NCBI RefSeq assembly: GCF_022662175.1
Contig: NZ_JAKMCR010000001.1
Span: forward strand, 62,001 to 126,000
From: Aestuariivivens marinum
GTDB lineage: Bacteria > Bacteroidota > Bacteroidia > Flavobacteriales > Flavobacteriaceae
Direction of reading: 5' to 3'
Length of the DNA stretch: 64,000 nucleotides
Within the stretch, counting starts at the first letter, position 1. Each line of letters opens with the position of its first letter. The translations under genes were made by a program, and so were the position numbers. Positions 30,736 through 58,679 of this stretch are shown here, in pieces. The notes under the pieces are model-generated. The model worked only from the letters and a program-made list of their open reading frames with translations, made no database searches and was not told the DNA's origin.

Positions 30736-33339
30736 TTAAAACACAAAGCTTAAACTATCGCTTTTAATGGTTATTCCCTTTTGCTCTTGCCATAAGTTTT
30801 CGTCTGGGTCACCAACTTTTATAATATAACTAGCTTTATCATCAAAAATTTTTGCCGCAAATACTTGGCCTTTAATCCTAATGGCATATTCCAAGTCTTT
30901 GGTTTGTTCATTAATGATTTGAATAACTGGATTTTCAACACCTTCAACCATAATCTCAGGTAAATAGCCTTCGGCCTTTTTGCCAAAGTTTTCCTCTTGA
31001 GCAACAGTTTGCGGCCAGCCTGGGTACTGGGAACCTTCTTCTAACGGATTATCAAAACGCCTAAAACATTCCGTTTTTATAGTTCTATCCTTTTTGTTAA
31101 ATGTTACAATACCATAACCTACAGCCCTATTATGTAATATAGCAGGTTCCTTATGCATATTATGGGGGTTAGCAATTGCTTTAACTGTCATTTTATTTCC
31201 AAACCCATCAATATAATTACCTGTATAAGCAGGATTTTCGTAAGTATGTTCAGAACTATCAACTGACGGCCAAAATCTACGGGGCCAAATATTGTTTAAT
31301 GCTGGCCCAGCAAAAGCATAACCACTATCTCCAAAATCATCCAAGCCGTATTGAATAAACGACCCTAAATGTTGATCGCCAGCAATATGGAAGGCAAATC
31401 CCTTACGAATAATTTCTACCGCCCTATCCCTCTTTTTAGCTGGCCAACCATTAGAATCCATGTCAACAGTTGGTTTATCTCCTTGTATATATTCGCCCAT
31501 TTCTGGAATATATAGTTTAGGTATAACTGCTCCTGTTTTGGCTTCAGCGGGTAATGTCGCCACAGTTGCAAAATTGGTTTGAGACAACACGGCTTTCATT
31601 TGGGCGCCATGGGACCAATCTTCTACCCAATATTCCAAAAAGGCCTCCTGTCTTGCACCCAATAACTCAGCTTCCAAATGCCTGTATTCTTTTATATCAA
31701 AATCGTCTGCCATTATCCAACCATTGTTAACTTTTGCCTCTTTGGGCAACACATGTGCTGGCGCCGATTTAAACTTTCTATCTTCTAAAATAGCAAAACT
31801 TATGCCGCCATAATTCCAATGTGTATAGTATACACTTATATTATTTTTAACTGGCGTAGCATCATAAGGATCTGGCAAATGGCTAGTTTGCGTAAACTGG
31901 ACCATATTAACCCAATCCGGAGTCATTTTATACCCTCCACTATCTTGTGAGGGTGCTCCATACCCATTACTGTTATCGGCTAACTTACCGCCTTCTCCCC
32001 AAATATTTCCATGATACACATCATGGTCATCTGGTATTATAGCACATGGCCTATTTCTAAACAATTCACGATACGACCATCCAAACATCATCCATTTTCT
32101 TAAATAATCGAGGCACGTTTTATCATAATCACCAGTAAATTGTACACCGTAACCACCAGTACCTTCATAGAACTGGTCTCCTAAAAACAAACAAATATCC
32201 GGATTTAATTTAGAGACACTTTCATAAATATCGGTATCTGGAAATCCATAATCGAAGTTACAGCTAAATATAGCTGCCTTTAATTGGTCCTTATCAAACG
32301 GCTCCGCTTTAATGGTCCCCAAATAATCGTATTGGTGCTTGCCTTTCCTTAATGGTATCAGCAAACGAATTCTATAAGGAACATCTTCTGTACCCTGCCA
32401 ATTAGCTACTGAAAAATTAACAGCACGCCCTTGATGCTTTACAACTTGTTCCTCTTGGGTACTCCACTTATCGCCTTTTTTAAATTGCAATACCACTTTA
32501 TGGCCTTCAATATCTTCTATCGGCGATAATTGCGCTGTTAATTTTAATTTCCCTCGGTGTGATGTATATTGCGCAAAACAAATCGGTCCAAAAATATTTT
32601 CTTCGTTAGAGTAAAGGGTTTTCGAATCTATAGACCAATCTTTAAAGCCAACTAGTGGTTGGTGGCTATTACCTCCCTTAACATCAACACTGGACAATAA
32701 TGCAAAATTTCCGGCGAGGGTTTCATTTGAAATATCAATATCACGTGTTGTATGGATAACCGTTTTAGATTCAGTGTCTATAATATGGGCAGTGAGCAAT
32801 TGGCTTTCTTCAGTCTTATTAGAAACATTAACATGTACGGTAAACTGTTGGGGCAAGGTTACCAATCTAGTTTCGAACACCTGTTCTCCAATAACCAAAT
32901 CTCCTTTCAGATTTAACCCAACATCCAAACCTTTACCAAAGACTGCTGCAGAACGGTAATCGTCAACACGCCCTTCAGCGCCTAACCTTAACCCGAAACA
33001 TCCCTGTTTTGCTCCCTCAAAATGTTTGTTCAAAATAGTTATTGTGACCTTTATCACATACTCTGCATTTCCATTTGGGTTTTGAACCGTCAGCAAATGT
33101 AGGTTTCTATTATTTCCTTTATAAGTGCATATTGCTTGACCTTTTTTTAATATCCAATCCTGCAATCTATTGCCCCAATATTGAGGGCCCACCCATTTCA
33201 TATCTTGCCATAAGTGCCACTCACTTTTAAAAGTCACTGGGTTTTCATTCGAAAAGCGATCATTTTCAAAACCATAACAGGACGTCATTGGTAAAATAGA
33301 ACCTAATAAAACTGTTTTTATATAATCTCTACGATGCAT
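30736..33339 (-). CDS. PhoD-like metallophosphoesterase with long N-terminal extension
   Basis: An 867-residue exported protein. The N-terminus (RRDYIKT then a short hydrophobic stretch and TSCYG) looks like a Tat and/or lipoprotein signal. Residues about 25-345 form an extra beta-rich region of unknown role. Residues about 350-720 form the PhoD-type phosphatase domain with CLFLGDQFYE (about 383), IIPDDHDVYHGNIWG (about 430) and FHIAGDQHLGS (about 651) as metal ligands. PhoD enzymes hydrolyse phosphodiesters using Ca/Fe. Here it is the last gene of a sulfatase-containing PUL, so a phosphorylated or phosphodiester-linked glycan is a plausible target. Activity is inferred. Confidence 0.87.
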   Translation of the reverse strand: MHRRDYIKTVLLGSILPMTSCYGFENDRFSNENPVTFKSEWHLWQDMKWVGPQYWGNRLQDWILKKGQAICTYKGNNRNLHLLTVQNPNGNAEYVIKVTITILNKHFEGAKQGCFGLRLGAEGRVDDYRSAAVFGKGLDVGLNLKGDLVIGEQVFETRLVTLPQQFTVHVNVSNKTEESQLLTAHIIDTESKTVIHTTRDIDISNETLAGNFALLSSVDVKGGNSHQPLVGFKDWSIDSKTLYSNEENIFGPICFAQYTSHRGKLKLTAQLSPIEDIEGHKVVLQFKKGDKWSTQEEQVVKHQGRAVNFSVANWQGTEDVPYRIRLLIPLRKGKHQYDYLGTIKAEPFDKDQLKAAIFSCNFDYGFPDTDIYESVSKLNPDICLFLGDQFYEGTGGYGVQFTGDYDKTCLDYLRKWMMFGWSYRELFRNRPCAIIPDDHDVYHGNIWGEGGKLADNSNGYGAPSQDSGGYKMTPDWVNMVQFTQTSHLPDPYDATPVKNNISVYYTHWNYGGISFAILEDRKFKSAPAHVLPKEAKVNNGWIMADDFDIKEYRHLEAELLGARQEAFLEYWVEDWSHGAQMKAVLSQTNFATVATLPAEAKTGAVIPKLYIPEMGEYIQGDKPTVDMDSNGWPAKKRDRAVEIIRKGFAFHIAGDQHLGSFIQYGLDDFGDSGYAFAGPALNNIWPRRFWPSVDSSEHTYENPAYTGNYIDGFGNKMTVKAIANPHNMHKEPAILHNRAVGYGIVTFNKKDRTIKTECFRRFDNPLEEGSQYPGWPQTVAQEENFGKKAEGYLPEIMVEGVENPVIQIINEQTKDLEYAIRIKGQVFAAKIFDDKASYIIKVGDPDENLWQEQKGITIKSDSLSFVF

Positions 33340-33360: not shown

Positions 33361-34779
33361 CTAATTTAAGTTATAATTTGGATTTAATGTTGTAGGCACA
33401 GGCGCATTGGTCTTGGCTCTCCACGCCTGAAGTTCATCATATAGTTCCTTCACTTTTTCTGGGTATTCATCAAACAAATTGTTATGCTCCCTAATATCTG
33501 TTTCAAGATTATACAATTCAATTTCACCATCTTCAAAATACTCATGAAGTTTCCATTTTCCCTTTCTCATAGCGCTACCCGGCCTAGTTCTAAATAAAGA
33601 ATCTCGAGCCTGTTCCTTTTCTGGATTTACGCTTTGCAAATAAATTGGGAAATGCCAAAACAAAGATCGTTCCTTCAAAGGTTTATTTTCAGTTAGTAAA
33701 GATAATATTGAAGCACCGTCCAAGTTATAATTATTATCTTCATTAATAATATCTAAAACTGTTGGAAAAATATCCAATCCGCTTACAGCAGTACTATCAA
33801 TTCTTGCATTTTGAATTTCGTTAGGCCATCTCACCACAAATGGCACCCGAATGCCTCCTTCGTAATAAGAGCCTTTCCCAGCTCTTATGGGAAATTGAGA
33901 AGAAACGCTTGCCAAACCACCATTATCAGACGAGAATATCACCAGCGTATTATCAGAAATACCCAATTCATCGAGTTTATTTAAAAGCTTCCCAACGTTC
34001 TCATCCATAGATTCAACCATGGCTCCATATTTTGCATTGAACCTGTCATCCCCTTTTAACTTCGCTCTATATTTTTTAACCAAAGCTTCCTTTCCTTGCA
34101 ATGGTGTGTGAACCGTAAAATAAGGCAAATAAAGGAAAAATGGAGTTTCCTTATTATGACTAATAAATCGTACGGCTTCTTCAGTAAGTCTATCTGTAAG
34201 ATATTCGCCATCTTCTCCATCTTCCAAAACTGAGTTTTTATAGGGACTGAAATAGGACTTGGGATGCCCGGCATGGGATCCAGCAATATTAACATCAAAA
34301 CCTTGCGTTAACGGATTATCACTTAAATGCCATTTTCCAATTGTCCCTGTTGTGTAGCCATTATTTTTAAGTACTTCGGCTAGCGTTACAAAACTTTCAT
34401 TAAGTGTTTCTGTATTTATTGTAGGAACGAGTTTCCTATCTTTAGTTTTACCTCTTTCTGAAGATCCCACCGTATAAATACCGTGCCTCGGCGTATTCTT
34501 TCCCGTTAGAATACAAGCCCTACTTGGCGCACAGTTTGCAGCGGGCGCATAACCATTTGAAAACACAACACTCTGTATCGCTAATTTATCCAGATTAGGT
34601 GTTTCGTATACGGGACTTCCCATAAAGCCCGTATCACTCCACCCCAAATCGTCTACCAAAATAAATAATATATTAGGTTTTCTTTCATGTTTTATCTGCT
34701 TTGAAAAACATGAAAACAAAGTAGAGGCAACAACCAATAGTACCATGTACTTTATTTTATAATTAGGTGTTTGATACAT
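33361..34779 (-). CDS. S1 family sulfatase (lipoprotein)
   Basis: A 472-residue sulfatase of the formylglycine type. The signature C-A-P-S-R with modifiable Cys83 sits in NCAPSRACILTGK. Metal ligands are in LVDDLGWSDTG (D43, D44) and IFSSDNGG. The N-terminus has a lipobox-like TLFSC (Cys24), so it is probably membrane anchored. It removes sulfate esters from a glycan. The maturase (anaerobic or aerobic FGE) is not encoded here. It lies 8 bases after the DUF3472 gene and 21 before the PhoD-like gene. I cannot place it in an S1 subfamily with certainty. Confidence 0.92.
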   Translation of the reverse strand: MYQTPNYKIKYMVLLVVASTLFSCFSKQIKHERKPNILFILVDDLGWSDTGFMGSPVYETPNLDKLAIQSVVFSNGYAPAANCAPSRACILTGKNTPRHGIYTVGSSERGKTKDRKLVPTINTETLNESFVTLAEVLKNNGYTTGTIGKWHLSDNPLTQGFDVNIAGSHAGHPKSYFSPYKNSVLEDGEDGEYLTDRLTEEAVRFISHNKETPFFLYLPYFTVHTPLQGKEALVKKYRAKLKGDDRFNAKYGAMVESMDENVGKLLNKLDELGISDNTLVIFSSDNGGLASVSSQFPIRAGKGSYYEGGIRVPFVVRWPNEIQNARIDSTAVSGLDIFPTVLDIINEDNNYNLDGASILSLLTENKPLKERSLFWHFPIYLQSVNPEKEQARDSLFRTRPGSAMRKGKWKLHEYFEDGEIELYNLETDIREHNNLFDEYPEKVKELYDELQAWRAKTNAPVPTTLNPNYNLN

Positions 34780-34787: not shown

Positions 34788-36485
34788 TTAATTTGTTGTA
34801 AACTCATTGGTATTAAATGACCATGTGATTCCTTCATCGTTTATGATTTTAATTCTATAAAAATACTTGGTTTCAGGTGTTAAATTTTCTAACATAACAG
34901 TAGTCTCCCCTAAATCGATGGGGAAGGCTTTATTTTTTTCCCAAAAGGCTTCTTTTGTAAGTCCTTCGGTAACACCATAAAACAAATAGGCCCGAGCATT
35001 GGTTCCTAAATTAGAAACACTTATTTTTATTTTTGCCGTATTTTTCGAAATTTCACAAACCCCTTGATTCTCAAAGCTAGCCGGCATTTTATATAATTCT
35101 TGCACATAATCCCCTTGAAGATAATAGGGCAATTCTCCTATATCATTTAAAACTAGTGTTTCTTTTGGTTTACCTACTTCGCCCCAGCCGCCCATTTCCA
35201 TAGCAAACCTACTATCTACTATTTTCCAATCCCTAGCACTTAAATTGTTTTCAGCTGTTGTTCCTATCATTTTAGTAATGGTATGCCAATTACCAACTGT
35301 GTCCATTTGCCAGCCTCGATAATGTGATTCACAAATTTCATGGCCGCTTCTAACTTTATGGGCTCCGCCAGGCACCTCAACAAAAGCGCCTGTAGTCAAG
35401 TATTTTATTTCACCTGTTTTATTGTATTTTTTACCACAACCATACAACTTCCAATGCTCACTTATAGGGTCTAAATAATAACTCCAATAGGTGTCATAAA
35501 TCTCACCTGGTAACATACGTACAGCTATTATTTGTATGTTTCGATTAACATCTATATACGGATGTGGCCCTCTAGGCTTAACACCAGTACCCTCATGCCC
35601 ATAAGACCCAAATTCCAAATCTGGCCCCACTGCAATTAAATGGCTTTCTTGATAGAAAGGTGGCGCTGGATCATTAGCCCCATAGGACCAAAGTGAAAAA
35701 TTATAACCGCCAAAGGTCTGTGAATCCTTATTCCAAGTAGATCCTGTATAGCCGAATGGCGTGGTAATGGGTTGATAGAAACTCACATTTTTGGTAGCAA
35801 TTGTAAGTTCGTGGACGCTAATTTCAATTGGGGCATCAGATGCTTCTATACCCCATTTACAATGTACAGCTTTAGCTCGATACCGACGCATTACGTTTGT
35901 TGAGTTTTTTACCGCAGTGCCACTTAAATGCAAATTACTAAAGTGACCTACTCCCTCATTTGGTGTTAATAATGTCTTTAATTTCAATTTAATTAAATGA
36001 AATCCTACCGAAACATTTTCGAACGTAACACCTTTTTGAATAACATAAGTACTTTCCGAACCTGTAGCCGTAAGGGTTATTTCTTTACTAACATCATCTA
36101 AATATATGAGCATCTTAGACCCTACTTGATTTGAAGCTATACCCATTTCAGGCTGAATGGTTAAATCCCCTTGGGTTTTTATATCCACTCCAAAAACAAT
36201 AGTGTCAGTTAAAACGTGCCAATTATAGATGTAGTCATAATTCTCATACTTATTATATTCGTTTCCGGATGTTTTATCTTTAAGGTTGGCAGTTAATGTC
36301 CCCACGGGTGAAAAAAAACTCTCATTAGGTGTAAAAACAAGTGATTTAGACTCCGTTTCATGTTGTTCATTTAACGTATAGAATGTTTCTTTACTATTAG
36401 AACATGAGAGCAAAAAATTTAATAATAAGATGCCACAAAAGAACAATATATATTTTTTAGTTATCAATATTTTAAAATAAAACAC
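34788..36485 (-). CDS. DUF3472 lipoprotein
   Basis: A lipoprotein of up to 565 residues (lipobox LLSC, Cys about 28). After a DUF5077-like beta-sandwich (about 60-200) comes a DUF3472 domain (about 230-420) recognised by [20 protein letters not shown] and a run of W, Y and G residues. An FN3-like C-terminal domain (about 480-560) follows. The function of DUF3472 is unknown; these proteins recur in sulfatase-rich PULs. I start at the GTG 36485, since no ATG precedes the signal peptide. An internal TTG at 36467 is an alternative. It follows the FN3 lipoprotein gene after 3 bases and precedes the sulfatase gene by 8. Confidence 0.82.
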
Positions 36486-36488
36486 CTC

Positions 36489-37190
36489 TTACTCGACATT
36501 AAAGGTAAATTGTTCTGAATTTGAGGTATTGCCTAAATCATCCGTCGTCACCACATACCATTTATATTTTTTACCAGATTCTACAGACACATTTGAAACA
36601 TTTGTACCCGTTTCATCGTCTGCTAATAAACTTAATGTTTCCCCTTCACCAAAATACACATCGTAATGTGCAATATCATTATCTACATCACTTCCAGACC
36701 ATTCCAAAGTCACCGTTGTTGTAGCTGCTATGCTTTCTCCATTAGTTGGACTAACTGCAACTGCTGGAAATGGAGCATAGGACACCAATCCCTCACCTGC
36801 ATTATAAAACTTCCATGTGGCACTGGCGGCCGTATCGGAAACCGAATTGGATTTGGAGGTAACGAACCATGAATATGGGGTTGCTCGCAATAAGGTTAAA
36901 CTAATCTCCGTGTTATTGGTATTATGTGTTGTAGTTACCCCGGACAGCAAATTCTTTAAAGTCAAGACATACGAATCCGTATCATTCCCGGCATTCCATT
37001 CAAAGGTTATCGTACTTTCGGATGAGGTGACATTTGTACCTTCGGTGCATTCTGAATTCTGTTCAGGAAAGACCAAACTTGCTGCCGTAGGCTTCTTAGG
37101 CCTTACTACTTCCCTTACTTCTTCATTACTTCCCCCACTACAATTAAACAAAATCAAGCCTAAAAACATGTATATTAAATTTTTTCTCAT
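36489..37190 (-). CDS. Lipoprotein with two fibronectin type III domains
   Basis: A 233-residue surface or periplasmic lipoprotein (lipobox ILFNC, Cys about 18). It has two FN3-type beta-sandwiches (about residues 35-130 and 135-232), the second with the classical YDVYFGEGETLSLL and KYKWYVVTTDDLGN strands. No enzymatic motif is visible. It overlaps the stop of the large T9SS protein gene by 4 bases (ATGA) and is tightly coupled to the DUF3472 gene. It may be a glycan-binding partner analogous to SusE/F, but I see no direct similarity to those. Confidence 0.78.
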   Translation of the reverse strand: MRKNLIYMFLGLILFNCSGGSNEEVREVVRPKKPTAASLVFPEQNSECTEGTNVTSSESTITFEWNAGNDTDSYVLTLKNLLSGVTTTHNTNNTEISLTLLRATPYSWFVTSKSNSVSDTAASATWKFYNAGEGLVSYAPFPAVAVSPTNGESIAATTTVTLEWSGSDVDNDIAHYDVYFGEGETLSLLADDETGTNVSNVSVESGKKYKWYVVTTDDLGNTSNSEQFTFNVE

Positions 37191-40100
37191 AGTTTAATCA
37201 TTTTATGAATTTTAGATTCATCTTCACTTACAACATGAACGAGATAGGCCCCTTTTGGGAATCCTTGCAACACTATTTTTAACAATCTATCTTGTTTTGC
37301 TTCAACTTCTTTGTTGTAAACCACCCCCCCTGTTATGTTAAAAATGGATATTGTTACATTCTTACTTTTTTGAAAGGTTTCACTTAAAGCAACATTTAAT
37401 ATATTTTTGGCAGGGTTGGGATAAAAATAAGTTTCTCCTCTAAAGTCAAATACCTCTTCATAAATACCCTGACATGTTTTATCGGTAAACACCTTTAAAA
37501 CATTGAATTTCCCAGCTTCCAAATTCAAGGTCACACGACTACTTGTGGTAGACGTAATTTCACCATTTAAATAAATATTATACGTTTGTGATCCAGAAAG
37601 GTCTAATGTTACGGCATCCTTATTATCTGATACTTTTGAAAAGACATTCAAATTTTCCGGCTCATCGACCTGTACCGTAAAACACTGTTCATAATCCGGT
37701 GCATCTGCTATGGTTATACATATGGTATAGGTTCCCGCAGACAAGTTTTCTAGAACTAAGGGATTGCTCACATCAAATGTAACCGTATTATCAAAACCCG
37801 TACTCGTTATTACAGCTGTGTAAGGGTAATCTACCAAGGCCGTAATATTGACTTTGCCATTATTACTATTTCTACAGGTCTCGCTGGTAACAGAGACCGA
37901 ATAATTGTTTTGGTCTAAAATGACGTCAACAGCTTTTTTAACTAAGATATAATCTGCAACTTCTTTTGTATCGGATCCCTTTGGATTCGTTACTGTTAAA
38001 ATCACCTTGTACAATCCCTCGGTATTATAAGTGACCAATGGATCTTCCTCTGTACTGGTTGATGGTGTACCACCTTCAAAAGTCCATTCCCATTGTGTTG
38101 GTCCTTCTGTTGACACATCAGAAAAGCTAACCTGACCCCCTTCGTAAACTTCAGTAAGGTTAGCTGTAAAATCTGCCACAGGAGGTGGTTGTACAGTTAC
38201 AGCAATATAATCGGTAATTGTTTTTGTATCAGTTCCAAATTCATTGGTAACGGCCAAAGACACTTCATAAGTTCCTTCTACATTATAAGTAACTTGTGGT
38301 GACTGTTCATTACTTGATGAGGGAGATCCTCCTGTAAAAGTCCATGACCATGCTGTTGGAGAACCCAATGAGGTGTCGGTAAAAGAAACAGATTCACCAA
38401 CATATATACTGGTATTATCTGCAACAAAATTTGCAATAGGTGACATATTGGGAGCTTCATTCATAACTTCTACAATCTCCTCTAAGGTCAACGCTTTTGA
38501 ATACACCCTTATATCGTCCAATTCCCCTATCCAATCGTAACTACCATTGTAAGCTGCACTTCCAATCCTTAGATTAGTTGCCGTACTGGTGTTTATAATG
38601 GTTGCTTCAGAATTAAATGAATCGCCACTATCAGGTTGATTAGCATAATATTGCCCATCTATATACAATTTTATAGAATTCATTGTTACACCATCCGTTG
38701 CGTCATAAGTAACCGCAATATGCCTCCATATATCATTATCCAACCTTGTTACTGAACTATCGTCATTCTGCACATTACAAGAACCTCCTTCCACCCGTAT
38801 ATTACCATTCTCTACCATAACATTCCACATGTTTCCAGATATGTTTTCTCCCCAGGACACAACTGTTTTTCTGGATCCCGCCGTAGTTGTTTTTATCCAT
38901 GCTGTAACCGTTCGTTCTCCCGTTCCACCAACACCCGTATAGGTATTCTCTAAATAATGCCCTGATTGTTTCTGATAGGCACTATTAGGGTTACCAAAAT
39001 GGTCGTCAACGTAAATTGCATCACCTGTACCTTGTACAACGAGGTCTCTTTTATATGTTGAATCATCAATTAAGTTATTTTGAAAATTAAATTGTGCTTG
39101 CAAAGGTCCAGTTCCTTGATTTTCTGTGACTGTGATATAATTGGTTACTTCTTTAGTATTGGATCCAAACTGATTTGTTGCTGTTAATGTTACTTTGTAT
39201 GTTCCAATGGCATTATAAGTAACCATTGGGTTTTGTTCGGTACTTGTAGTTGGAGTACCACCTTCAAAAATCCAACTCCAAGAGGAAGGCAAATTGGTTG
39301 ATGTATCTTCAAAATTTACAAAATTACCTTGAAAAACAGTTTGGGTGTCTGCTATGAAATTCGCTACAGGTGCTATGGCTTGATTGACCGTAATATAACC
39401 TTCAACTGTTTTGGTATCCGTTCCAAAATCGTTTGTCACCATAAGTATAACCTTATAAACCCCTGGATTCATATAAGTTACACTTGGGTTTTCGTCGGTG
39501 CTTGTTGCTGGTGTCCCGCCTTCAAAAGTCCAACTCCATGAATTTGGAAATCCTATGGATTGATTTTGAAAGTTAATGGTTTCGCCTTCAAAAATAGTTT
39601 GTGCATCTGATCCAAAATTACTCGTGGGCGGTTCCTCTATACCTACCAACTCAGCACTCCACACCCCACGTCCCCAAGTAGCGGCATATAATCTTTGGGT
39701 ATTATGTTGTATTTCAAGATCATTAACTACTACATTGGGTAATCCCAATCCAAATGATTGCCATTGGGTCAAGGTGTCATCAATATAATATACTCCAATG
39801 TCTGTGGCAATATAAAGTGCATTATGACTTGTATTGTCGTAAACAATGTCTGAAGTGGTTAAATTAGGCAATCCATTAGATATGTTTGACCAAGTTGTTC
39901 CTCCATTATCTGTTTTGTAGGCCTTCTCAAATGCACCATAACCCGTAAAACAAAGTGCCACTTGGTTAGGGTCATCGTAATCGACAGCAATGCCCTTGAT
40001 TACTCGGTTTGGCAAACCCGAACTAATTTCAACCCAATTGGCACCACCATCAGTGGTTTTCCAAATCCTTGCCTTAATTGAAGCGTAAATATAATCCGGA

Positions 40101-41884: not shown

Positions 41885-42259
41885 GTGTTTATTTTTATTG
41901 TTTTGCATGTCATTTGAACGCCTAATTACTTGGCAATTTACCAAATGACCTTGTATGTTTTGGGAGACTAAATCGGCTTTTAGGGTAGATAAAATTATTT
42001 ATCCGATTTTAATCATCTTCAACTAAAGTCTATTTTTTTATCTTTTACGAGCATTTCCTTTTAAACATAACCTTAAACAACGCAGATATTATAGACTGAC
42101 CTGATATGTTTTCTTTAACTTTAGAAGAAACGGTAAACAGAATTTATCATTTATTAAAGTGCTTTCAAAATATTCAAAAAAACCCAGTATTAATGGACAA
42201 ACCATGATACTGGATTTTTAGGAACATTGCTATTAACCATAAAACACTTTACAATAAAC
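41885..42259. other. 375-base intergenic region
   Basis: No gene. It contains the terminator at 42184-42213 and the presumed promoter of the gene at 41884, but no TAnnTTTG box is visible on the minus strand. A small dyad (GATAAA-ATTA-TTTATC, near 41990) may be regulatory. Confidence 0.5.
42184..42213 (-). terminator. Terminator of the LamG-PKD-LamG gene
   Basis: Stem CCAGTAT..ATGG / CCAT.ATACTGG with a 5-base loop, about 47 bases past the stop. The minus-strand transcript continues into a run of seven Us. A T-run on the plus side makes it symmetric. Confidence 0.7.
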
Positions 42260-47763: not shown

Positions 47764-47795
47764 TGTCTTTTCATTTTTAAAATTAATTGATTTTA

Positions 47796-49585: not shown

Positions 49586-52500
49586 TTAGAATGATAGATT
49601 AAGTCCTAAAGAATATTGTGTCATTATAGGATATACACCATTAGATCCTTGGTCGGGCTCTAATCCTTTAGGGAGCCTATCAAAAGTATGAATGTTATTT
49701 CCAGAAATAAATATTCTAAATTTATTAACTTTTATTTTTTGTAAAAACTTACTATCTAAACTATAACCAAAAGTTATATTTTGAATACGTAAATAACTCT
49801 CATCACTTAAATATTTCGTTTGGTCCCTGCGGCTTCTGCCATAATTACTACCTGTATTACCATTATTTGGGTCTCCATAAATTCTAGGATAGAATGCGTC
49901 TTGGTTATCCGGTGTCCAATAATCTAATTGGTGTTTGTAAATATTATCGAATACTGAAGGATATGGCCATATTAGATCTGAATTCCTATTAAGATCTTGT
50001 TTTCCAACACCACTTAGTACAAAAGAAAAATCAAAACCTTTATATGATGCCGATCCATTAACCCCAAATTGGTAACGTTTTCTAAGATTACCAATAACTT
50101 TTCTATCTCCAGGACCAGTAGTTATCACACCATCTGCATTCTTTATTGGCTCTCCATTACTATCAAACTCTGTTATTAAAGTATTATTCCCCGATGAAAT
50201 GAATCCATCTCCATCTAAATCTTTAAATTTAACATCTCCAGGATAAGGTGTTTCTCCAATAAATGTTGGCACTCCTGGTTTTAATTCTCTACTAGCTCCT
50301 GATAAATCGGCATTTAATGTTCCTTCAACAAAATCATCAACAGTATAATAGCCATCGGTAACATAGCCGTAAATATCACCCAGTCTCTGTCCTTCCCTAA
50401 AATCTGAAAGCAAAAGCCCTGGATTATTAAACTTAGTGATCTCTGCAATATTGTCGAAAACATTTATATTAATATTATAGGTGAAATCCTTACCTATTCT
50501 ATCTTTCCAACTCAAGGTCGCTTCCCATCCGGTAGTCTCTAGATCGGCTACGTTTTGGAATGGTGCACTGGTACCTAATATCCCAGGCAAAGGCTCTCCT
50601 TCTCTTAACATTCCTTTGGTTTCTCTTCTATAAACCTCAAAACTTGCATCAAGACGATTACTAAACATAGTCACATCTAAACCTAAGTTCGTAGAAATAA
50701 TTTGTTCCCATGTTAGGCCTGCACTAATTAGCTGTGCTGGTTCGAAGGTTAAATACCTTAAATCACTTCCTAAATTAATCCAGCTGGCAAAGAAAGACTC
50801 ATAACCTGGATTAAATGGATAGTAATCCCTGGCACCCCCAATTTTTCTGGCTATTTGGTTACCTATTTCTCCCCAAGAGAACCTTGGCTTTAACATTGAA
50901 ATAAAGTCAACATTCTTCATGAATGGTTCTTTTGCAATATTCCAAGCCAAAGAGAAAGATGGCAAGTCCACAAAACGATCGCCTTTTGCAAATATGGACG
51001 ACCCATCTCGCCTAAAATTGGCCTCTGCAAAATAACGCTCTTTGAAATTGTAATTGAATCGACCAAAATATCCTATGATAGACCAATCGTAAAATGCTTC
51101 GCTTATATCCCAGTTTTCCCCTTCGGCCAATTCAAAAGTAGGTGTTGTTACATCTATCAAACCATTTCTGAATGCTGAAAAAGATTCAAAATTCTCTTCC
51201 TCTTTATTTAATCCTGCTAAAAGGTTAAAATTGTGCCCTCCCAAACTAAAATTATATTTTGCATAAAGATTTAAAGCATTGTAAACTGTTTGGCTTTTTG
51301 ATCTCGACAATGAACTGTTCCTAATTTCATCCTCGGCAGTTCCATTAACGGCATATAAATGCGCTCTAGCAAAGCGGCGCCCATTGTTCAAGGAATAATT
51401 GCTTACCAAATCCTTTTCATAAGTGTATTCACCCGTTAGCTCTAAATTTTTAAACGGTTCCCATTTTAATTGTTGATACAATCTCGTGTTGTCTACATAG
51501 CCTTTTGTCGGTTCTCTGTACCGTACTAGATTCCCGGGAGTATCAACAGGGAACGCTTCTCCATCAATATCGAGAAACCCAGTTGGATCGAACATACGTA
51601 ACTGAATTGCGCTAGCGTAGTCTGCTCTAGGTCTTGTTTGAACACTCGATCTATAAAAAATATTTGTAGTAGACTCTAAATTGTGTGCAACATCAGCATT
51701 AACTAACGCATTGATATTATATTTTTTAAAATTATCTTGATTGGTTATCATAATACCATCTTCATAGGTATAACCAGAACTTAAACGATAAGCCACGCTT
51801 TCTCCACCGCCGCTTACTGTAAAGTTATGAATTGATGAATACCCGAAGTTATTTAAAAACTCATCAATGAGATCTGAATCTGCCAAAGGATAGTATTGCG
51901 ATCCGTTTGTATCAAAATGGATTGGATAAGTTGTTCCATTAATTGGGTCGATTATCAAATTTAACTGGCTGGGATCTGAGTCGAATTGATCTAAATAACC
52001 TAACCACCTTTCAACATTCTGGCCTGCAAAATAATCCCTTACACCCCAATCGTTTAAAGCTTCAACAAACTCTCTAGTCGTAGCTTTTTCAGGCAAATCT
52101 GTAGTTGTAGAGACACTTGTAGTATTGTCATAAGTAAACCTAGGTTTCTGGTTGCGTTTTGCTTTTTTAGTTGTAATAAGCACAACACCAAATGCAGCCC
52201 TTGCACCATAAATCGAACTAGCTGCAGCATCTTTTAATATGGAAACAGATTCGATATCTCTTGGGTTTAAATCTTCAATACTCCCTTCAACGTTATTAAT
52301 CAATATTAATGGGGAACCTCCGTTTAAAGAAGTAAAACCACGAATATTAATTCCTACACTATTAGCACCAGGCTGTCCAGATGTATTGGTAACTTGCAAA
52401 CCAGCTGCAACCCCTTGAAGAGCCTCTGCGGCATTGACTATAGGTCTATCTGCAATAATCTCATCCATTTTCACAAACGAAGTAGCTCCAGAAACATTTT

Positions 52501-52846
52501 CTTTTTTCTGCGTACCAAAACCAACAACCACAACTTCGTCAAGCTGTGAAACATCTTCCTGCAAGGTAACATTTATAATGGTTTTTCCAGCGACTGAAAC
52601 CTCTTGAGTGATATATCCTACGTAGGACACTACAAGTATTGCATTTTCATTAACGGTTAACGAATACTTACCGTCAAAGTCTGCAGAAACTCCTGTATTT
52701 GTTCCTTTTACAGCTATCGTTGCACCTGATAATGGCAACCCCGATTCGTCTGCTACCGAACCTCCAACGACCTTCTGTTGTGCCTGCATAGAACATGTAA
52801 GCACCAACAAAATTCCTAAAAGTTTTAAAGTTAGTAGTTTTCTCAT
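49586..52846 (-). CDS. susC: SusC/RagA family TonB-dependent receptor
   Basis: A 1086-residue outer membrane transporter. It has a signal peptide (ends SMQAQ), a carboxypeptidase-regulatory-like domain (about 23-105), a TonB-box-like LDEVVVVGFGTQ (about 103-114), a plug domain with the SusC signature LNPRDIESVSILKDAAASS (about 193-211) and a C-terminal beta-barrel ending in LGLNLSF. It imports oligosaccharides into the periplasm using TonB energy. It is coupled to susD (11-base gap) and preceded by the GH109-like gene (50-base gap). Substrate is inferred from neighbours to be a sulfated glycan. Confidence 0.96.
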   Translation of the reverse strand: MRKLLTLKLLGILLVLTCSMQAQQKVVGGSVADESGLPLSGATIAVKGTNTGVSADFDGKYSLTVNENAILVVSYVGYITQEVSVAGKTIINVTLQEDVSQLDEVVVVGFGTQKKENVSGATSFVKMDEIIADRPIVNAAEALQGVAAGLQVTNTSGQPGANSVGINIRGFTSLNGGSPLILINNVEGSIEDLNPRDIESVSILKDAAASSIYGARAAFGVVLITTKKAKRNQKPRFTYDNTTSVSTTTDLPEKATTREFVEALNDWGVRDYFAGQNVERWLGYLDQFDSDPSQLNLIIDPINGTTYPIHFDTNGSQYYPLADSDLIDEFLNNFGYSSIHNFTVSGGGESVAYRLSSGYTYEDGIMITNQDNFKKYNINALVNADVAHNLESTTNIFYRSSVQTRPRADYASAIQLRMFDPTGFLDIDGEAFPVDTPGNLVRYREPTKGYVDNTRLYQQLKWEPFKNLELTGEYTYEKDLVSNYSLNNGRRFARAHLYAVNGTAEDEIRNSSLSRSKSQTVYNALNLYAKYNFSLGGHNFNLLAGLNKEEENFESFSAFRNGLIDVTTPTFELAEGENWDISEAFYDWSIIGYFGRFNYNFKERYFAEANFRRDGSSIFAKGDRFVDLPSFSLAWNIAKEPFMKNVDFISMLKPRFSWGEIGNQIARKIGGARDYYPFNPGYESFFASWINLGSDLRYLTFEPAQLISAGLTWEQIISTNLGLDVTMFSNRLDASFEVYRRETKGMLREGEPLPGILGTSAPFQNVADLETTGWEATLSWKDRIGKDFTYNININVFDNIAEITKFNNPGLLLSDFREGQRLGDIYGYVTDGYYTVDDFVEGTLNADLSGASRELKPGVPTFIGETPYPGDVKFKDLDGDGFISSGNNTLITEFDSNGEPIKNADGVITTGPGDRKVIGNLRKRYQFGVNGSASYKGFDFSFVLSGVGKQDLNRNSDLIWPYPSVFDNIYKHQLDYWTPDNQDAFYPRIYGDPNNGNTGSNYGRSRRDQTKYLSDESYLRIQNITFGYSLDSKFLQKIKVNKFRIFISGNNIHTFDRLPKGLEPDQGSNGVYPIMTQYSLGLNLSF

Positions 52847-52896: not shown

Positions 52897-54258
52897 TTAA
52901 TAGCTGTCTTTAATCCATTTATAAGGCTTCTTCTTTACCCATATGCCTCTTGTAAAATCTGGAAAATCCTGTGGCTCTCCATTATTTTCTATGGATAGTT
53001 CTGATAATGGTGTAATCGCACTCCAAGCGGCGGCATCGTAAGCATCCATTGGAGGCACAATATTTTGCTTAGCAGATTCTACAAAAGCATGCAACACAAA
53101 GAAATCCATACCGCCATGACCTGAACCCGTTGCATGTTCGCCGTATTTTTTCCATAGCGGATGATCATACTTTCGCAACCATTCCTTTGAGTCATCCCAA
53201 CGGTGTGGTTTTTCCGATTGTCCTTCTATATAGATCCTGTCACCGTCCTTTTCCCATAAGCCCTTAGTTCCCTGAACCCTAAAGCCCAATGAATATGGCC
53301 TTGGTAAGTGTACATCATGAGTAACAATAATGGTTTCCCCATTAGCCGTTTCAATGGTTGACGTAATAACATCTCCCATTTTAAAGTTCACTTTTGCATT
53401 TGGGTGATTTCTACCACCATTTTCTATTATATAATTATGCATCCCCCTACTTTTTGTGGCATGGGAAGTTAGTGATACAAATCTATTGCCCCTATTGATG
53501 TCGCACATAGCGGCTATAGGACCCACACCATGTGTTGGATACACATCCGCATTTCTTAATACCGAGTGCTGTGTTCTCCAAACAGATTCTGATATTCCTT
53601 TATCACCAAACTCCACGCCTTTACCATAGGCTGTTTTACCATCATTCAGCATAACAAAACGCAAATCATGCTGGTAGCCACATCTAAAATGCACCATTTC
53701 TCCAAAAACATTTTGCTTCACCATATTGAGTACAGCCAAAACATCCCGACGATAATTCACATTTTCTAAAAGCATCAAGTGGGTTCCAGTTTGTTCATGT
53801 GTATTGACTAAATCCCAACACTCTTCTATTGTATTGGCTGCCGAAACTTCCAAGCCAGTATATTTTCCTGCAAGCATGGCGTCCTTGGCCATGCGGGTAT
53901 GCCACAGCCATGGTGTTGAAATTATTACAGCGTCCACATCTTTCAACTCTAAAAGATTTTTATAGTCATTATCATCGCTACCAAAAATCATTGGCTTTTT
54001 TCTACCCTTTTTTGATATCTTTTCTAAAGCTATGGATATTCTGTTTGGATCTATATCGCAAATAGCGGTAATTACAACATCTTTCCTTTGCAAAGCATTA
54101 TCAAGATGGTTTGTTCCCCTAAGACCTACACCAATAAACCCCAGCTTTAATTTTTCTTCTAGCCTAAAATTTGAAATACCAAAAGTAACATTGGGTAATG
54201 TTGCGAGGCCAACTCCAGCAATAGCAGATTTCTTTATAAAACTTCTTCTTGTACTCAT
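52897..54258 (-). CDS. GH109-like Gfo/Idh/MocA glycosidase, Tat-exported
   Basis: A 453-residue NAD-dependent protein with a Tat signal (STRRSFIKKSAIAG). The Rossmann fold begins at LGFIGVGLRGTNH (about 37-49). The TPWLWH motif (about 115-120) and the GH109-typical block YPTHGVGPIAAMCDINRGNR (about 241-260) place it in the GH109 branch of the Gfo/Idh/MocA family. GH109 enzymes are alpha-N-acetylgalactosaminidases that use a transient NAD+ oxidation mechanism. It is the first gene of the SusCD operon and is the only recognisable glycosidase of the locus. Substrate specificity is inferred from the family. Confidence 0.85.
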   Translation of the reverse strand: MSTRRSFIKKSAIAGVGLATLPNVTFGISNFRLEEKLKLGFIGVGLRGTNHLDNALQRKDVVITAICDIDPNRISIALEKISKKGRKKPMIFGSDDNDYKNLLELKDVDAVIISTPWLWHTRMAKDAMLAGKYTGLEVSAANTIEECWDLVNTHEQTGTHLMLLENVNYRRDVLAVLNMVKQNVFGEMVHFRCGYQHDLRFVMLNDGKTAYGKGVEFGDKGISESVWRTQHSVLRNADVYPTHGVGPIAAMCDINRGNRFVSLTSHATKSRGMHNYIIENGGRNHPNAKVNFKMGDVITSTIETANGETIIVTHDVHLPRPYSLGFRVQGTKGLWEKDGDRIYIEGQSEKPHRWDDSKEWLRKYDHPLWKKYGEHATGSGHGGMDFFVLHAFVESAKQNIVPPMDAYDAAAWSAITPLSELSIENNGEPQDFPDFTRGIWVKKKPYKWIKDSY

Positions 54259-54584: not shown

Positions 54585-57500
54585 ATGAGAAAGTATATAA
54601 AGCCATTTTACTTTTTATTTCTATTCAATTTTTTTTCTGTAATCTATGCACAAGTTGAATCGAACTTTATCAAGCTAGATAATACCTTTGGTGGAAATAT
54701 ACAATTTGCCGAAGATCACCTAGGCTACATGGTTTTTATAGGTAATAACCGAATACACAAATACAATGGCTATGACTTTATACGAAAACCTTTAACCAGT
54801 GTTTTTGGAAATGATTTTACGAGAGACCAGAATTTCATTTTAGCCAAAGACAGTCGCAGGAACCTTTGGATTTCTTCTTTTAAAGGTGAGCTTTTGAAAC
54901 TATCTACAACTGGTGAAAAAACCTCGTTTAAAGAATTTATAAAAAAAAATGACAGCTACACTCAAATTACTTCCATAACTCCAATAGATGACACTGTTTG
55001 GTTTGGTTCAGTGAATGGTAATCTTTTTAAATACACCTTCAATAGTAATACCATAGAATCCATATTTACTTTACCTCAAATTAATGATACCAAACAAACT
55101 ATAAATACTATTGCTTTAACAAGCCCCGACAAATTATGGGTAAGTACACAAACAGGAAATATCTATAATTATTCAACTATAACCCATACTCTTGAACTAT
55201 ATGAAGGACTTGAAACCAGAAACCAGCAGAATGTTTACATTACTAATGACAAGTTGGGGCGTTTATGGATTGCCACTGAACTGGAAGGTCTTTTTTGTTA
55301 TGATCCTAAAATAGATATGTTAAAACAATACGATGTTGAAATAAATAACGGAGCATCGAAACACCACATGTTTATTTCTATTTTTTGTGATAGTTCTGGT
55401 GTTATATGGGCAGGGACTGATGGAGATGGCCTCTACAGTATTAACACAAATAATGATAAACTTTCGGTTTATAAACATCAAGAGAATGATAGATTTTCAA
55501 TAAGTGACAATACCATTACTAACATTACTGAAGATTCAAAAAATAACATTTGGGCTATTGCAAAGCAAGGTGTTATTAATATCCTGCCAAAGAATACAAA
55601 CAAAATAAAATACTATAATGGATTAAAAAATGAAGGTTCTACAAAGGTTTTATCGGTTTTAAAAGCTTCTAATGGAATAATTTATATTGGTACGGATGGA
55701 AAAGGCCTCAATAAAGTTCTTCCTAGCGGTCATAAAATTCAATATAAGCCTTCCAACAAGAATAATAATTTTTTTGAAGGGCGTTACATTCAATCCATGG
55801 CCGAAGACCAAAACGGTAACATTTGGCTTGGAACCTACCAAAATGGATTATGGGTATACAACCCTTCCTTAAATAGTTTCAAAAAAATAGAACCAAATAA
55901 CACCTCTTCTCCAGATGTACAGACTGTTTTTAAAGATTCAAAAAATAGAATTTGGGCAGCTTTTGGAGGGGCTTTCAATGTGTTCAATGACAAGCATGAA
56001 TTATTAGCTTCTTTTAATTATAATGACAAAGGTTTATTTGGAACCACCTGTATGGGGATTAACGAAGATGAACATGGTAATATTTGGTTAGGTTTAAACC
56101 CTAATAAACTTTATAAACTTAATGAAGATGCACAGGATTTAAAAGAGTCCTATTTTACTAAACACAACTATTTCATAGCCAATCCAGAAGATTTAAGAAA
56201 TTACAACATACATTCCTTAAAACCTGATTTTAATGGTCATTTATGGATTTTAGCCGCATCTGGAATACTTATCAAGTATAACATAAACAGTAATACTTTT
56301 GAATCTTTCGCCAATAACAGCTATTTGAATGGCATTTTTATTTCATCGGTTTTAATAGAGGATTCAAACAATTTATGGTTAAGCAGTACAAATGGAGTGC
56401 ACCATTTTAACTTAAAATCAAATGAGCTTAAATCTTTTTATCAGATTGATGGCTTTCACAATACCACTTTTTCAAGAAGGAGTGACTTTAAAGATAATGA
56501 TGGTTTTTTATATTTTGGTGGTGATCATGGCGTTAATGCCTTCTTGCCCTCAGAAATTAAAAAAAATGACACGGAAGCCAAGCTTTATTTAAACGATATT
56601 GAAATTCTTAATAAACCTGCCAACAATATTATACCTGAGCAAGTCCATTATGGTGTTGAATATGTTAAAGATCTTAAATTAAATTATAACCAATCTTCTT
56701 TTTCATTTCAATTTTCAGCCTTGGGGAACTTAATAAATACCGATTATCATTATGCCTATAGGCTAAACGGGTTTGACAACGAATGGATTACTCCAAGAGA
56801 AGAACGAACAGCAACCTACACAAACATCCCCTATGGAAATTATACCTTCCAGGTGAAAGCAGGAACTAAAAAGGACGAATGGAACATTGAGCCCATATCA
56901 TTAAATATTTCAATAAAACCACCTTGGTGGTACACTTCATGGGCATACCTTCTATATTTTTTAATTGGCCTATTACTAATTTACGGCTTTTGGGTATGGT
57001 TTCGTTTAAAAAGTAGGCTGATTAAAGAAACCTGGCAAAACAATAAAGAAAAGGAACTATATGCGCTTAAAATGAATTTTTTCGCAAAGATGTCGCACGA
57101 AATACAAACACCATTGACCCTTATTTTAGGCCCCATTTCGGATATGTTGAAAAGGGCTAGCGATAATGGTAATAAACTTTTATACAAAAGGCTATTAATG
57201 ATCGACAATAACGCCAATAGATTGTCGCGAATAGCCATGGAGTTAATGACTGTTAGGAATAAAGAGCTTGGCAAGCTACGTATCTATGCCTCAAAAAACA
57301 ATTTAATTAAAGATTTAAAAAGAATTGCCCTATCATTTAACGAACAAGCCCGATTTAAAGACATCCATTTTATCCAACAATACCCAGAAACTGATATTAA
57401 TATTTGGTACGATAGTGACAAAATTGAACATGTCATTTACAATTTACTATCCAATGCCTTTAAGTTTACCCCAAAAGAAGGAACAATTTCCCTTAAAGTG

Positions 57501-58679
57501 AGTTTAGATGAAACTAAGGAGTCGGTCAATATTTCGGTTAGGGATTCTGGTCCTGGCATTCCTAAGGAAGAACTTCAGGATATTTTTAAACTTTTTTATC
57601 AATCGGACTTAGGAAAACACAGCAAGGGTATTGGTATTGGGCTTGCGCTTACTAAAGAACTTATCACATTACATAAAGGTGAGATAGATGTGAAATCATC
57701 ACCAGAAAACGGTACTTGTTTTTCTGTTAAGCTTTCAACCAAAGAGAACATCTTTACCGAAGATGAAAAGATATTTGTTGAAAATTCGAACATTATTTCC
57801 GATTCTATTGAGGAGGAATTTGAAGACTTAGAGACAAATTTCAACATAAAAACAAATGTTGAAACTGATAAAAAATATACATTGCTAATCGTAGAAGACA
57901 ACATTGAAATGCAAATGTTTTTGCGAGATGTTTTATCTAATGCTTATCACTTGCTTATTGCTGCAAATGGCAAAGAAGGCATCGAATTGGCAGAAAAACA
58001 CATTCCAGACTTAATCATTAGTGACATTATGATGCCTGTTATTGATGGTCTAGAAATGTGCAAACTACTTCAAAAGAAAAAAGTGACCGCCCATATTCCA
58101 ATCATTATTTTAACTGCTAAAAATTCGGCTACAAATAAGATAAAGGGCTTACAAACTGGTGCAGTAGAATACATAAAAAAACCGTTCAACTTTTATGAGC
58201 TCCAATTAAAAGTAACCAATATACTTAAAGCAAAAGAAAAAGCAATCTCTAAATACAAAATGGATTTAATTAGCAGTCCAGAACATATTGCAAAACCCTC
58301 AAAAGGTGATATATTCTTGGAGAAACTGGTAAACGAAATCAATAAACAATTAGAGAACCCCGACTTTAAACTGGAAGATTTAACCAAGATATTTAACATG
58401 AGTTATTCTGTTATCTATAGAAAATATCAAGAGATTACAGGCAAAACGCTAATCGATTTGGTAAAATCCTTAAGATTAAGAAAAGCCGCTCTGTTAATAA
58501 GTCAAAATGGATACAATATTTCTGAAGCGGCCTATATGGTAGGTTATAAAGATGCTAAATATTTCACCAAAAGTTTTAAAGAAGAATTTGGTATTCCCCC
58601 TGCCACTTTTAAACGCGAAAGCAAAAATACCGACTGGAACAAGTTAGCTGAAAAGTATAACATCCAATATCACAACTAA
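54585..58679 (+). CDS. Hybrid two-component system regulator (HTCS)
   Basis: A 1364-residue one-protein signalling system. It has a signal peptide (ends IYAQ) and a periplasmic two-propeller sensor with Reg_prop repeats such as NLWISS and GVIWAGTDGDG (about 25-690). A Y_Y_Y domain (about 695-780), a membrane helix (about 784-806), a histidine kinase (His838 in MSHEIQTPL) and an ATPase domain (NLLSNAFKFTP, DSGPGIP) follow. A receiver (E1104, D1105, phosphoacceptor D1147) and a C-terminal AraC-type HTH (about 1250-1350) complete it. HTCSs sense an oligosaccharide and activate the adjacent PUL. The H-box has Gln in place of the usual Arg (SHEIQTP). It is divergent from the GH109-SusCD operon. 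Confidence 0.96.
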   Translation: MRKYIKPFYFLFLFNFFSVIYAQVESNFIKLDNTFGGNIQFAEDHLGYMVFIGNNRIHKYNGYDFIRKPLTSVFGNDFTRDQNFILAKDSRRNLWISSFKGELLKLSTTGEKTSFKEFIKKNDSYTQITSITPIDDTVWFGSVNGNLFKYTFNSNTIESIFTLPQINDTKQTINTIALTSPDKLWVSTQTGNIYNYSTITHTLELYEGLETRNQQNVYITNDKLGRLWIATELEGLFCYDPKIDMLKQYDVEINNGASKHHMFISIFCDSSGVIWAGTDGDGLYSINTNNDKLSVYKHQENDRFSISDNTITNITEDSKNNIWAIAKQGVINILPKNTNKIKYYNGLKNEGSTKVLSVLKASNGIIYIGTDGKGLNKVLPSGHKIQYKPSNKNNNFFEGRYIQSMAEDQNGNIWLGTYQNGLWVYNPSLNSFKKIEPNNTSSPDVQTVFKDSKNRIWAAFGGAFNVFNDKHELLASFNYNDKGLFGTTCMGINEDEHGNIWLGLNPNKLYKLNEDAQDLKESYFTKHNYFIANPEDLRNYNIHSLKPDFNGHLWILAASGILIKYNINSNTFESFANNSYLNGIFISSVLIEDSNNLWLSSTNGVHHFNLKSNELKSFYQIDGFHNTTFSRRSDFKDNDGFLYFGGDHGVNAFLPSEIKKNDTEAKLYLNDIEILNKPANNIIPEQVHYGVEYVKDLKLNYNQSSFSFQFSALGNLINTDYHYAYRLNGFDNEWITPREERTATYTNIPYGNYTFQVKAGTKKDEWNIEPISLNISIKPPWWYTSWAYLLYFLIGLLLIYGFWVWFRLKSRLIKETWQNNKEKELYALKMNFFAKMSHEIQTPLTLILGPISDMLKRASDNGNKLLYKRLLMIDNNANRLSRIAMELMTVRNKELGKLRIYASKNNLIKDLKRIALSFNEQARFKDIHFIQQYPETDINIWYDSDKIEHVIYNLLSNAFKFTPKEGTISLKVSLDETKESVNISVRDSGPGIPKEELQDIFKLFYQSDLGKHSKGIGIGLALTKELITLHKGEIDVKSSPENGTCFSVKLSTKENIFTEDEKIFVENSNIISDSIEEEFEDLETNFNIKTNVETDKKYTLLIVEDNIEMQMFLRDVLSNAYHLLIAANGKEGIELAEKHIPDLIISDIMMPVIDGLEMCKLLQKKKVTAHIPIIILTAKNSATNKIKGLQTGAVEYIKKPFNFYELQLKVTNILKAKEKAISKYKMDLISSPEHIAKPSKGDIFLEKLVNEINKQLENPDFKLEDLTKIFNMSYSVIYRKYQEITGKTLIDLVKSLRLRKAALLISQNGYNISEAAYMVGYKDAKYFTKSFKEEFGIPPATFKRESKNTDWNKLAEKYNIQYHN

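Follow-up and report, generated by a model that had tools for sequence, protein, structure and literature searches.

A predicted DUF3472 mucinase in a sulfatase-bearing polysaccharide utilization locus of Aestuariivivens marinum

Introduction

Which enzyme opens the polymer when a locus built for glycan uptake encodes no recognizable depolymerase? The question is raised by a polysaccharide utilization locus (PUL) of Aestuariivivens marinum (Flavobacteriaceae; RefSeq assembly GCF_022662175.1, contig NZ_JAKMCR010000001.1), which lies within the 64,000-nucleotide stretch that we analyzed (contig positions 62,001 to 126,000; hereafter the window). A first-pass annotation, made from the letters of the DNA, had described eleven co-directional genes plus a hybrid two-component system (HTCS) as a full uptake and regulation system. 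Open reading frames (ORFs) and Pfam bear out this layout: eleven minus-strand genes (30736-54258) and a divergent plus-strand HTCS gene (54585-58679) comprise a SusC/SusD pair, a linked regulator and enzymes, as the definition of a PUL has it, with intergenic gaps of -7 to 381 bp and 326 bp between GH109 and HTCS (Table 1). Pfam likewise recovers the two sulfatases, the GH109-like enzyme, the metallophosphoesterase, the DUF3472 protein and the LamG/PKD proteins that the annotation had listed, and finds no lyase and no glycoside hydrolase (GH) family besides GH109 in the 12 PUL proteins, as it had also stated.

Here we propose, with moderate confidence, that this PUL targets a sulfated mucin-type O-glycoprotein (alpha-linked N-acetylgalactosamine, GalNAc, on Ser/Thr), which a mucinase would open and other enzymes would trim down to GalNAc. 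Because the polymer is most likely a glycoprotein, neither a lyase nor an endo-acting GH would be needed.

Results

The first-pass annotation had suspected that depolymerizing activity hides in an uncharacterized protein and had called for structure-based searches of the DUF3472 and propeller regions. For DUF3472 the suspicion holds as a prediction, as the protein is related by both sequence and structure to HC7 of Bacillus cereus K8 (PDB 8pmu, 8pn3 and 8pn5), with which it shares the DUF3472 domain, the fold and both aligned glutamates. The protein consists of a CBM35/6-like domain (carbohydrate-binding module; residues 45-191), the DUF3472 domain (202-467) and an fn3 domain (467-565). A profile of 35 DUF3472 domains matches 8pmu (E 5.5e-11), 8pn5 (2e-10) and 8pn3 (2.2e-10), all three named 'DUF3472 domain-containing protein' in the PDB, and also 4qhw. 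In this alignment HC7 Glu200, mutated to Ala in 8pn3 and 8pn5 (glycopeptide complexes, by their titles), falls on E370 of the window protein, and the Glu of HC7 GGEGTG (index 131) falls on E298 of GHEGTG. Both positions are Glu in all 35 domains, in which Arg200 and His208 are also invariant; the second Glu may be catalytic as well. HC7 efficiently cleaves only Tn and T mucins (PMC13003899). By sequence and model comparison, the DUF3472 protein is probably the missing depolymerase, a predicted di-glutamate mucinase like HC7.

An AlphaFold2 model of the protein, built from 15 sequences (predicted local distance difference test score, pLDDT, 70.8, with several loops below 50), superposes on HC7 (8pn3_B) with Z 15.8 and a root-mean-square deviation of 4.2 Å over 219 residues, and on 4qhw, BACCAC_02064 of Bacteroides caccae, with Z 21.9 across both domains; the structural alignments (VIA) leave other folds possible. 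BACCAC_02064 shares the N-terminal and DUF3472 domains, its 401-residue chain stopping where the window protein has fn3. HC7 carries a CBM5, whereas the window protein has the CBM35/6-like N-terminal domain and the C-terminal fn3. The DUF3472 protein was found in 4 of 299 genomes of the family, and a DUF3472 domain in 27 of 296 genomes sampled across the phylum; both counts take in the genome of the window. Centipede venoms hold DUF3472 proteins of bacterial origin (PMC7864903), which might act on glycoproteins if DUF3472 is a mucinase domain.

The propeller search gave a weaker candidate. The closest matches of the propeller model are GH74 endo-xyloglucanases (Z 29.1; Foldseek E 1.2e-31), and the protein bears a type IX secretion system (T9SS) sorting domain, so that one could imagine this tandem propeller (37187-41944) as the endo-acting enzyme and DUF3472 as a binding protein or accessory hydrolase. 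Generic seven-bladed propellers reach Z 26-27, however, barely below GH74, and the propeller gene is absent from two copies of the cluster (L019 and L023), whereas DUF3472 is in all ten. We therefore set the propeller aside as depolymerase and regard this alternative as very improbable.

The ten copies are the window and nine of 13 loci from a scan of genome contigs (L019-L031). In these nine (L019-L027), as in the window, SusC, SusD, the small LamG protein, DUF3472, sulfatase B and sulfatase A co-occur, a recurrence that makes the cluster more than chance. The hosts are Flagellimonas pacifica, Wocania arenilitoris, two Flaviramulus, a Flavobacteriaceae metagenome-assembled genome (MAG), two Carboxylicivirga, a Marinilabiliaceae MAG and Gaetbulibacter. 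L028 is a 4.4-kb contig fragment with part of SusD, sulfatase B and DUF3472, and L029-L031 have DUF3472 but not the cluster. All seven flavobacterial copies, the window's among them, carry GH109 and PhoD, with some of these copies truncated at contig or locus ends. An HTCS was seen in six of them, the contig of the remaining one stopping before that point, and the small fn3-like lipoprotein is kept in L020, L021, L022 and L027. Most cluster ORFs of the nine other copies match window proteins by BLAST, and the unmatched ones put to Pfam are peptidases, sulfatases and an EEP protein. The Flagellimonas copy (L019) has two opposite-strand neighbors, a GH31 gene, which adjoins another SusC/SusD set, and an FG-GAP/ASPIC gene. 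The 300-nt copies of an internal duplication in the LamG lipoprotein gene (46180-47802) are 81% identical, and 144 of 193 residues agree between the encoded copies; the duplication is missing from the 330-aa Wocania and Flaviramulus versions.

The sulfatases indicate which sugar might be displayed. Both keep the Cys-x-Pro-x-Arg motif (C83 in sulfatase A; C82, in CAPAR, in sulfatase B). The genome has 13 sulfatase matches, and an FGE-sulfatase domain (FGE, formylglycine-generating enzyme) exceeds the cut-off in three genes, one of them GldJ-like, which makes sulfatase maturation plausible. Sulfatase B scores 623 bits against 7ana/7anb and 377 bits against 7an1 (BT1636). At the positions that we take to hold the O2-reading Glu and Arg of BT1636, it has Y339/N340 and G359, where BT1622 has F/N and C. 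BT1622, a member of S1_20 active on 3-O-sulfated (3S) GalNAc/Gal, is the enzyme of 7ANA/7ANB, 7AN1/7OQD being BT1636 (PMC10154620), and is without the Glu and Arg by which BT1636 reads O2; it prefers 3S-GalNAc, and its natural substrate is called unidentified, O3-sulfated Tn being suggested (PMC10154612). Sulfatase B, likewise without this pair, is thus predicted to be of the BT1622 type with 3-O-sulfo-GalNAc specificity. It differs from BT1622 in its catalytic residue, which is Cys where BT1622 has Ser, and in sharing an operon with GH109 and DUF3472. Beside three of the other S1_20 copies (L062-L065) no PUL was recognized (a SusC-like ORF lies 8 kb off in L064), and L065 sits among GH92 and GH29 genes; the window PUL would offer a natural setting for this sulfatase type. 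Sulfatase A is S1_16-like and predicted to act on 4-O-sulfo Gal/GalNAc; the S1_16 enzymes BT3057 and BT3796 take 4-O-sulfate off Gal and GalNAc. Its six Trp residues are candidates for the subsite-0 Trp of S1_16 enzymes acting on 4-O-sulfated Gal/GalNAc.

The sulfated GalNAc target of the first-pass annotation thus survives as a prediction through sulfatase B, its polymer most likely being a mucin-type glycoprotein rather than a polysaccharide of the chondroitin kind. One rival target is a glycosaminoglycan, chondroitin- or holothurian-type, on which lyases encoded outside the PUL would act before it is trimmed: chondroitin typically contains 4-O-sulfo-GalNAc, and a paper on a chondroitin PUL of Bacteroides caccae mentions GH109 and sulfatases. 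By Pfam, however, lyase, GH88 and uronate genes are all missing from the cluster, GH109 as an alpha-GalNAc enzyme misfits the beta-linked GalNAc of chondroitin, and the peptidases of related loci fit poorly, which leaves a glycosaminoglycan target with little chance of being right.

GH109 and its companions in other loci support the glycoprotein reading. The window enzyme matches PF21252 (295 bits), PF01408 (an NAD-binding fold; 38.7 bits) and the alpha-N-acetylgalactosaminidase 2ixa (515 bits). The GH109 enzyme BT4243 frees GalNAc from Tn (GalNAc-Ser), not from T antigen (PMC11992087). Within the same PUL, L024 and L026 carry an M60 peptidase (HEVGH in L024; their F5/8C matches fall under the cut-off), and L019 carries a HELAH protein with F5/8C; DUF3472 is the only candidate peptidase recognized in the window cluster and in those of Wocania, Flaviramulus, Gaetbulibacter and L023. 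Four further loci (L088-L091) have a GH109 74-75% identical to that of the window, all with HTCS and SusC/SusD, together with a HELGH peptidase in L088 and L090 and a strong DUF3472 match (351.6 bits) in L088; in L091 a similar DUF5077 protein begins at the end of the stretch. In another family, L077 holds two HELGH peptidases, PhoD (52%) and GH109 (54%) beside SusC/SusD. HExxH proteins of L077, L088 and L090, like that of L019, bear F5/8C. When DUF3472 neighborhoods were sampled (L122-L141, 20 of 28 matches, with L134 and L135 shorter and cut by contig ends), GH109 lay near DUF3472 in five of the 20 (L122, L124, L126, L131 and L134; 34-81% identity). The chance estimate of 4e-5 for this count, which assumes 2% per locus as guessed from 1-5 GH109-like genes per genome, is too small because three of the five loci come from one genus. 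Together, the associations of peptidases and GH109 point to alpha-GalNAc on protein. A sister PUL type can also be recognized in L088, L090 and L091, made up of HTCS, GH109 (~75%), SusC/SusD and an FG-GAP/ASPIC protein (by Pfam in L088 and L091), with DUF5077-DUF3472-F5/8C in L088.

The PhoD-like protein raises the possibility of a further substituent. It matches PF09423 at 35.7 bits (cut-off 27), is 73% and 72% identical in two relatives, and has no PDB sequence match at E<=0.01; the motifs GDQFY, DDHD and GDQH, which we take to be the metal-binding motifs of PhoD, are invariant in 3/3 sequences. Homologues occur in 30 of 395 genomes, counting that of the window. Thirteen loci (L075-L087) of the 31 matches outside the window's own genome were read: a sulfatase lies within ~10 kb in five, GH109 (54%) with peptidases in one, and neither in the other seven, among them L076 with GH95 and GH127, L085 with an agarase-CBM protein and L087, whose 22-26% GH109-like hits were not counted. 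This variety indicates that PhoD is not tied to one glycan. In L066, from a Marinilabiliaceae MAG, an S1_20/BT1622-like sulfatase has an EEP-domain gene on one side and a LamG-EEP gene on the other, followed by a calcineurin-type phosphoesterase with a PQQ-type propeller, and in L023 an EEP-domain protein follows PhoD. These phosphoesterase genes near PhoD and sulfatases make a phosph(on)ate substituent on the substrate plausible. In jellyfish mucin, aminoethylphosphonate may sit on GalNAc O6. Jellyfish O-glycans bear aminoethylphosphonate and a marine snail has sulfated core-1-based O-glycans; phosphonates sit mostly on mannose or GlcNAc, which counts against the GalNAc O6 placement (PMC6994554). 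In one Flaviramulus (L022/L052) the PhoD slot holds a much more divergent PhoD (45%), yet the propeller protein there is unusually near that of the window (75%).

The genes flanking the PUL bear on the fate of the products. An amino-sugar block begins 5 kb from the PUL end, ~28 kb from GH109, and its PF01636 kinase (46.3 bits) lies outside the operon and is a candidate GalNAc kinase. BT4240, the GalNAc kinase of the Bacteroides thetaiotaomicron mucin PUL, also belongs to PF01636 (PMC11992087). The same four-gene block lies ~7-12 kb from HTCS in genome G683 (L055); reading ~40 kb around the Wocania copy and one Flaviramulus copy did not reveal it. In the Flagellimonas locus L068, a GHMP/galactokinase-like kinase and a nucleotidyltransferase-like gene come after PhoD and a LacI regulator; relatives of the window's LacI regulator and CBM9 protein occur near DUF3472-GH109-SusCD in L122 and L131, L122 also having galactokinase-like and nucleotidyltransferase-like genes.

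The threonine block, whose short-chain dehydrogenase we take to be threonine dehydrogenase (TDH), adjoins the PhoD end of the PUL in the window, L052 and L054; elsewhere, in L056 and L057, it stands beside a different SusC-like system. Wocania (L061) has only a 51% homologue, Flagellimonas a 59% homologue on another contig, and the three Marinilabiliaceae genomes none at E<=1e-30. The arrangement is at most suggestive of a PUL satellite. We rejected the 4-hydroxyproline operon beside HTCS as part of the system. All six flavobacterial relatives searched have orthologues of its racemase (75-85%), in every case on a different contig from the PUL, and the adjacency may therefore be chance. Thr and Pro are typical of mucin repeats, and their breakdown genes beside the PUL are a weak sign of mucin. 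Farther out (16809-20309), an aromatic amino acid lyase-family gene, histidine ammonia-lyase by context, and urocanase adjoin the amino-sugar block, so that several amino-acid breakdown genes ring the PUL.

Table 1. Genes of the PUL and neighboring blocks, in window coordinates.
Feature	Position	Strand	Evidence and remarks
Amino-sugar block: NagB-like deaminase, NagP-like major facilitator superfamily (MFS) transporter, PF01636 kinase (23889-24980), nucleotidyltransferase	20498..25857	-	Pfam/NCBIfam scan
LacI-type regulator (+), CBM9-domain protein (-)	26107..27813	+/-	BLAST
Kbl, short-chain dehydrogenase, Lrp-type regulator	27943..30734		Threonine catabolism; possible satellite
PhoD-like metallophosphoesterase, 867 aa	30736..33339	-	Pfam PhoD; RR motif near N-terminus, possible lipobox; N-terminal part without Pfam match
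Sulfatase A, 472 aa, S1_16-like	33361..34779	-	Best PDB match 9fo1, 370 bits; active-site C83; lipoprotein by eye
DUF3472 lipoprotein, 565 aa, predicted di-glutamate mucinase	34788..36485	-	Pfam 94.6 bits (cut-off 24.8); AlphaFold2 model; Foldseek/VIA matches 4qhw and HC7; lipoprotein by eye
Small fn3-like lipoprotein, 233 aa	36489..37190	-	fn3/Big matches weak, under cut-off; lipoprotein by eye
Surface protein, 1585 aa: tandem beta-propeller, PKD x4, LamG, T9SS sorting domain at its end	37187..41944	-	Pfam Sortilin-Vps10, PKD, LamG, Por_Secre_tail
LamG-PKD-LamG protein, 622 aa, T9SS sorting domain at its end	42260..44128	-	Pfam
Sulfatase B, 521 aa, S1_20-like, BT1622 type	44510..46075	-	PDB 7ana/7anb, 623 bits; lipoprotein by eye
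LamG-PKD lipoprotein (LamG1), 540 aa, internal LamG duplication	46180..47802	-	Pfam; lipoprotein by eye
SusD-like lipoprotein	47796..49574	-	Pfam SusD_RagB 147.5 bits; lipoprotein by eye
SusC-like TonB-dependent transporter	49586..52846	-	Pfam
GH109, predicted alpha-N-acetylgalactosaminidase	52897..54258	-	Pfam GH109_C 295 bits; PDB 2ixa 515 bits; twin-arginine translocation (TAT) signal domain
HTCS regulator	54585..58679	+	Pfam Reg_prop, Y_Y_Y, HisKA (under cut-off), HATPase_c, Response_reg, HTH_18
4-Hydroxyproline catabolism operon: 4-hydroxyproline epimerase, D-amino acid dehydrogenase-like, aldehyde dehydrogenase (ALDH), M24 Xaa-Pro peptidase-like	58697-63742		Epimerase above NCBIfam cut-off; beside HTCS

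Discussion

We infer the activities, their cellular location, the order of the steps and the natural substrate as follows. The LamG, PKD and propeller proteins at the surface, together with SusD, would hold the glycoprotein, whose glycosylated backbone would be cut by the DUF3472 protein acting as a surface lipoprotein. The resulting glycopeptides would be imported by SusC/SusD, and sulfatases B and A are expected to strip GalNAc (or Gal) of its 3-O- and 4-O-sulfate, respectively. A phosphate- or phosphonate-linked substituent may be taken off by the PhoD-like enzyme, and GH109 would then free GalNAc from Ser/Thr. Uptake and phosphorylation of GalNAc could be provided by the neighboring MFS-kinase-nucleotidyltransferase block, and HTCS would sense a released fragment.

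A more specific version of this proposal, which we put forward as tentative and hold to be rather unlikely in its full detail, is that of a one-sugar 'charged Tn' mucin PUL, in which alpha-GalNAc would carry O3/O4 sulfate and a phospho- or phosphono-ester and would be handled by a new DUF3472 mucinase subfamily, PhoD and two sulfatases, with GH109 last. If true, it would supply a natural substrate for BT1622-type 3S-GalNAc sulfatases and a glycan role for PhoD.

A number of observations weigh against a mucin-type substrate or against the assignments on which it depends. The narrower profile, made from 15 close relatives, matches 4qhw (E 3.1e-14) and not HC7 at E<=1; the AlphaFold2 model is mediocre, with residues 259-306, E298 among them, below pLDDT 50; and identity to HC7 is only ~12%, which makes the transfer of function a prediction. 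BT1622 favors beta- over alpha-3S-GalNAc ~14-fold (PMC13383068), which speaks somewhat against Tn. M60 (PF13402) has no match in the window's genome, and the sialidases, fucosidases and galactosidases needed for longer mucin glycans are lacking in the PUL, the part of the genome surveyed for them. Neither GH109 nor PhoD turned up in the stretches read of the three Marinilabiliaceae copies, and the core may thus be able to do without both; GH109-like genes (37-69%) do occur elsewhere in those three genomes. In G683 (L055), GH20 and a further sulfatase lie 2-6 kb past HTCS and hint at a larger glycan. The PF01636 kinase has no NCBIfam match, and the Thr and Hyp catabolic neighbors are linked to the PUL in only three genomes and one genome, respectively.

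Two further points of this kind also speak for a different substrate, a sulfated polysaccharide such as a red-algal galactan or a sulfated GalNAc glycan, on which DUF3472 would act as an endo-glycosidase and not as a peptidase: sulfatase A is nearest to 9fo1, labelled 'k-carrageenan sulfatase S1_16', and 4qhw is titled a putative sugar hydrolase. Reg_prop HTCS regulators and LamG proteins are, moreover, common in polysaccharide PULs, and the di-Glu family has been described as a bridge between glycan hydrolases and peptidases. Set against this, Pfam finds no GH16, other endo-GH or lyase in the 12 PUL proteins, and the locus has no carrageenan-degrading GH; the nine other copies mostly match window ORFs, their Pfam-checked extras being the peptidases, sulfatases and EEP protein, plus the opposite-strand genes at L019; sulfatase B is of a GalNAc-preferring type; and M60/HExxH peptidases and GH109 recur in related PULs. 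We judge a polysaccharide target to be unlikely, and a sulfated mucin-type glycoprotein remains the substrate that we favor.

The nearest known parallel is BT4240-50, the mucin O-glycoprotein/GalNAc PUL of B. thetaiotaomicron (PMC11992087), which likewise combines SusC/SusD with GH109, a PF01636 kinase and an MFS transporter (the last two in a separate block in the window) and whose M60 peptidase (BT4244) has counterparts in two relatives of the window PUL. The window PUL is without M60 and GH2, and has DUF3472, two sulfatases, PhoD, HTCS regulation and T9SS surface proteins instead. Since its genome has no M60, we regard it as working like BT4240-50, not as a member of that system. It would thus be an established kind of system, the mucin/O-glycoprotein PUL, in a predicted new combination of a DUF3472 di-glutamate mucinase, BT1622-type and S1_16 sulfatases, PhoD, HTCS and T9SS surface proteins. 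We found no earlier description of such a PUL in the literature searched, which leaves out most subscription journals; the DUF3472 papers found there concerned centipede venoms and Drosophila DNA viruses.

Should the proposal prove correct, a 'domain of unknown function', DUF3472, would gain a likely role, and a PUL without a depolymerase becomes a testable glycoprotein pathway. It would also mean that environmental Bacteroidota eat sulfated animal mucins protease-first, in parallel to the strategy of the gut.

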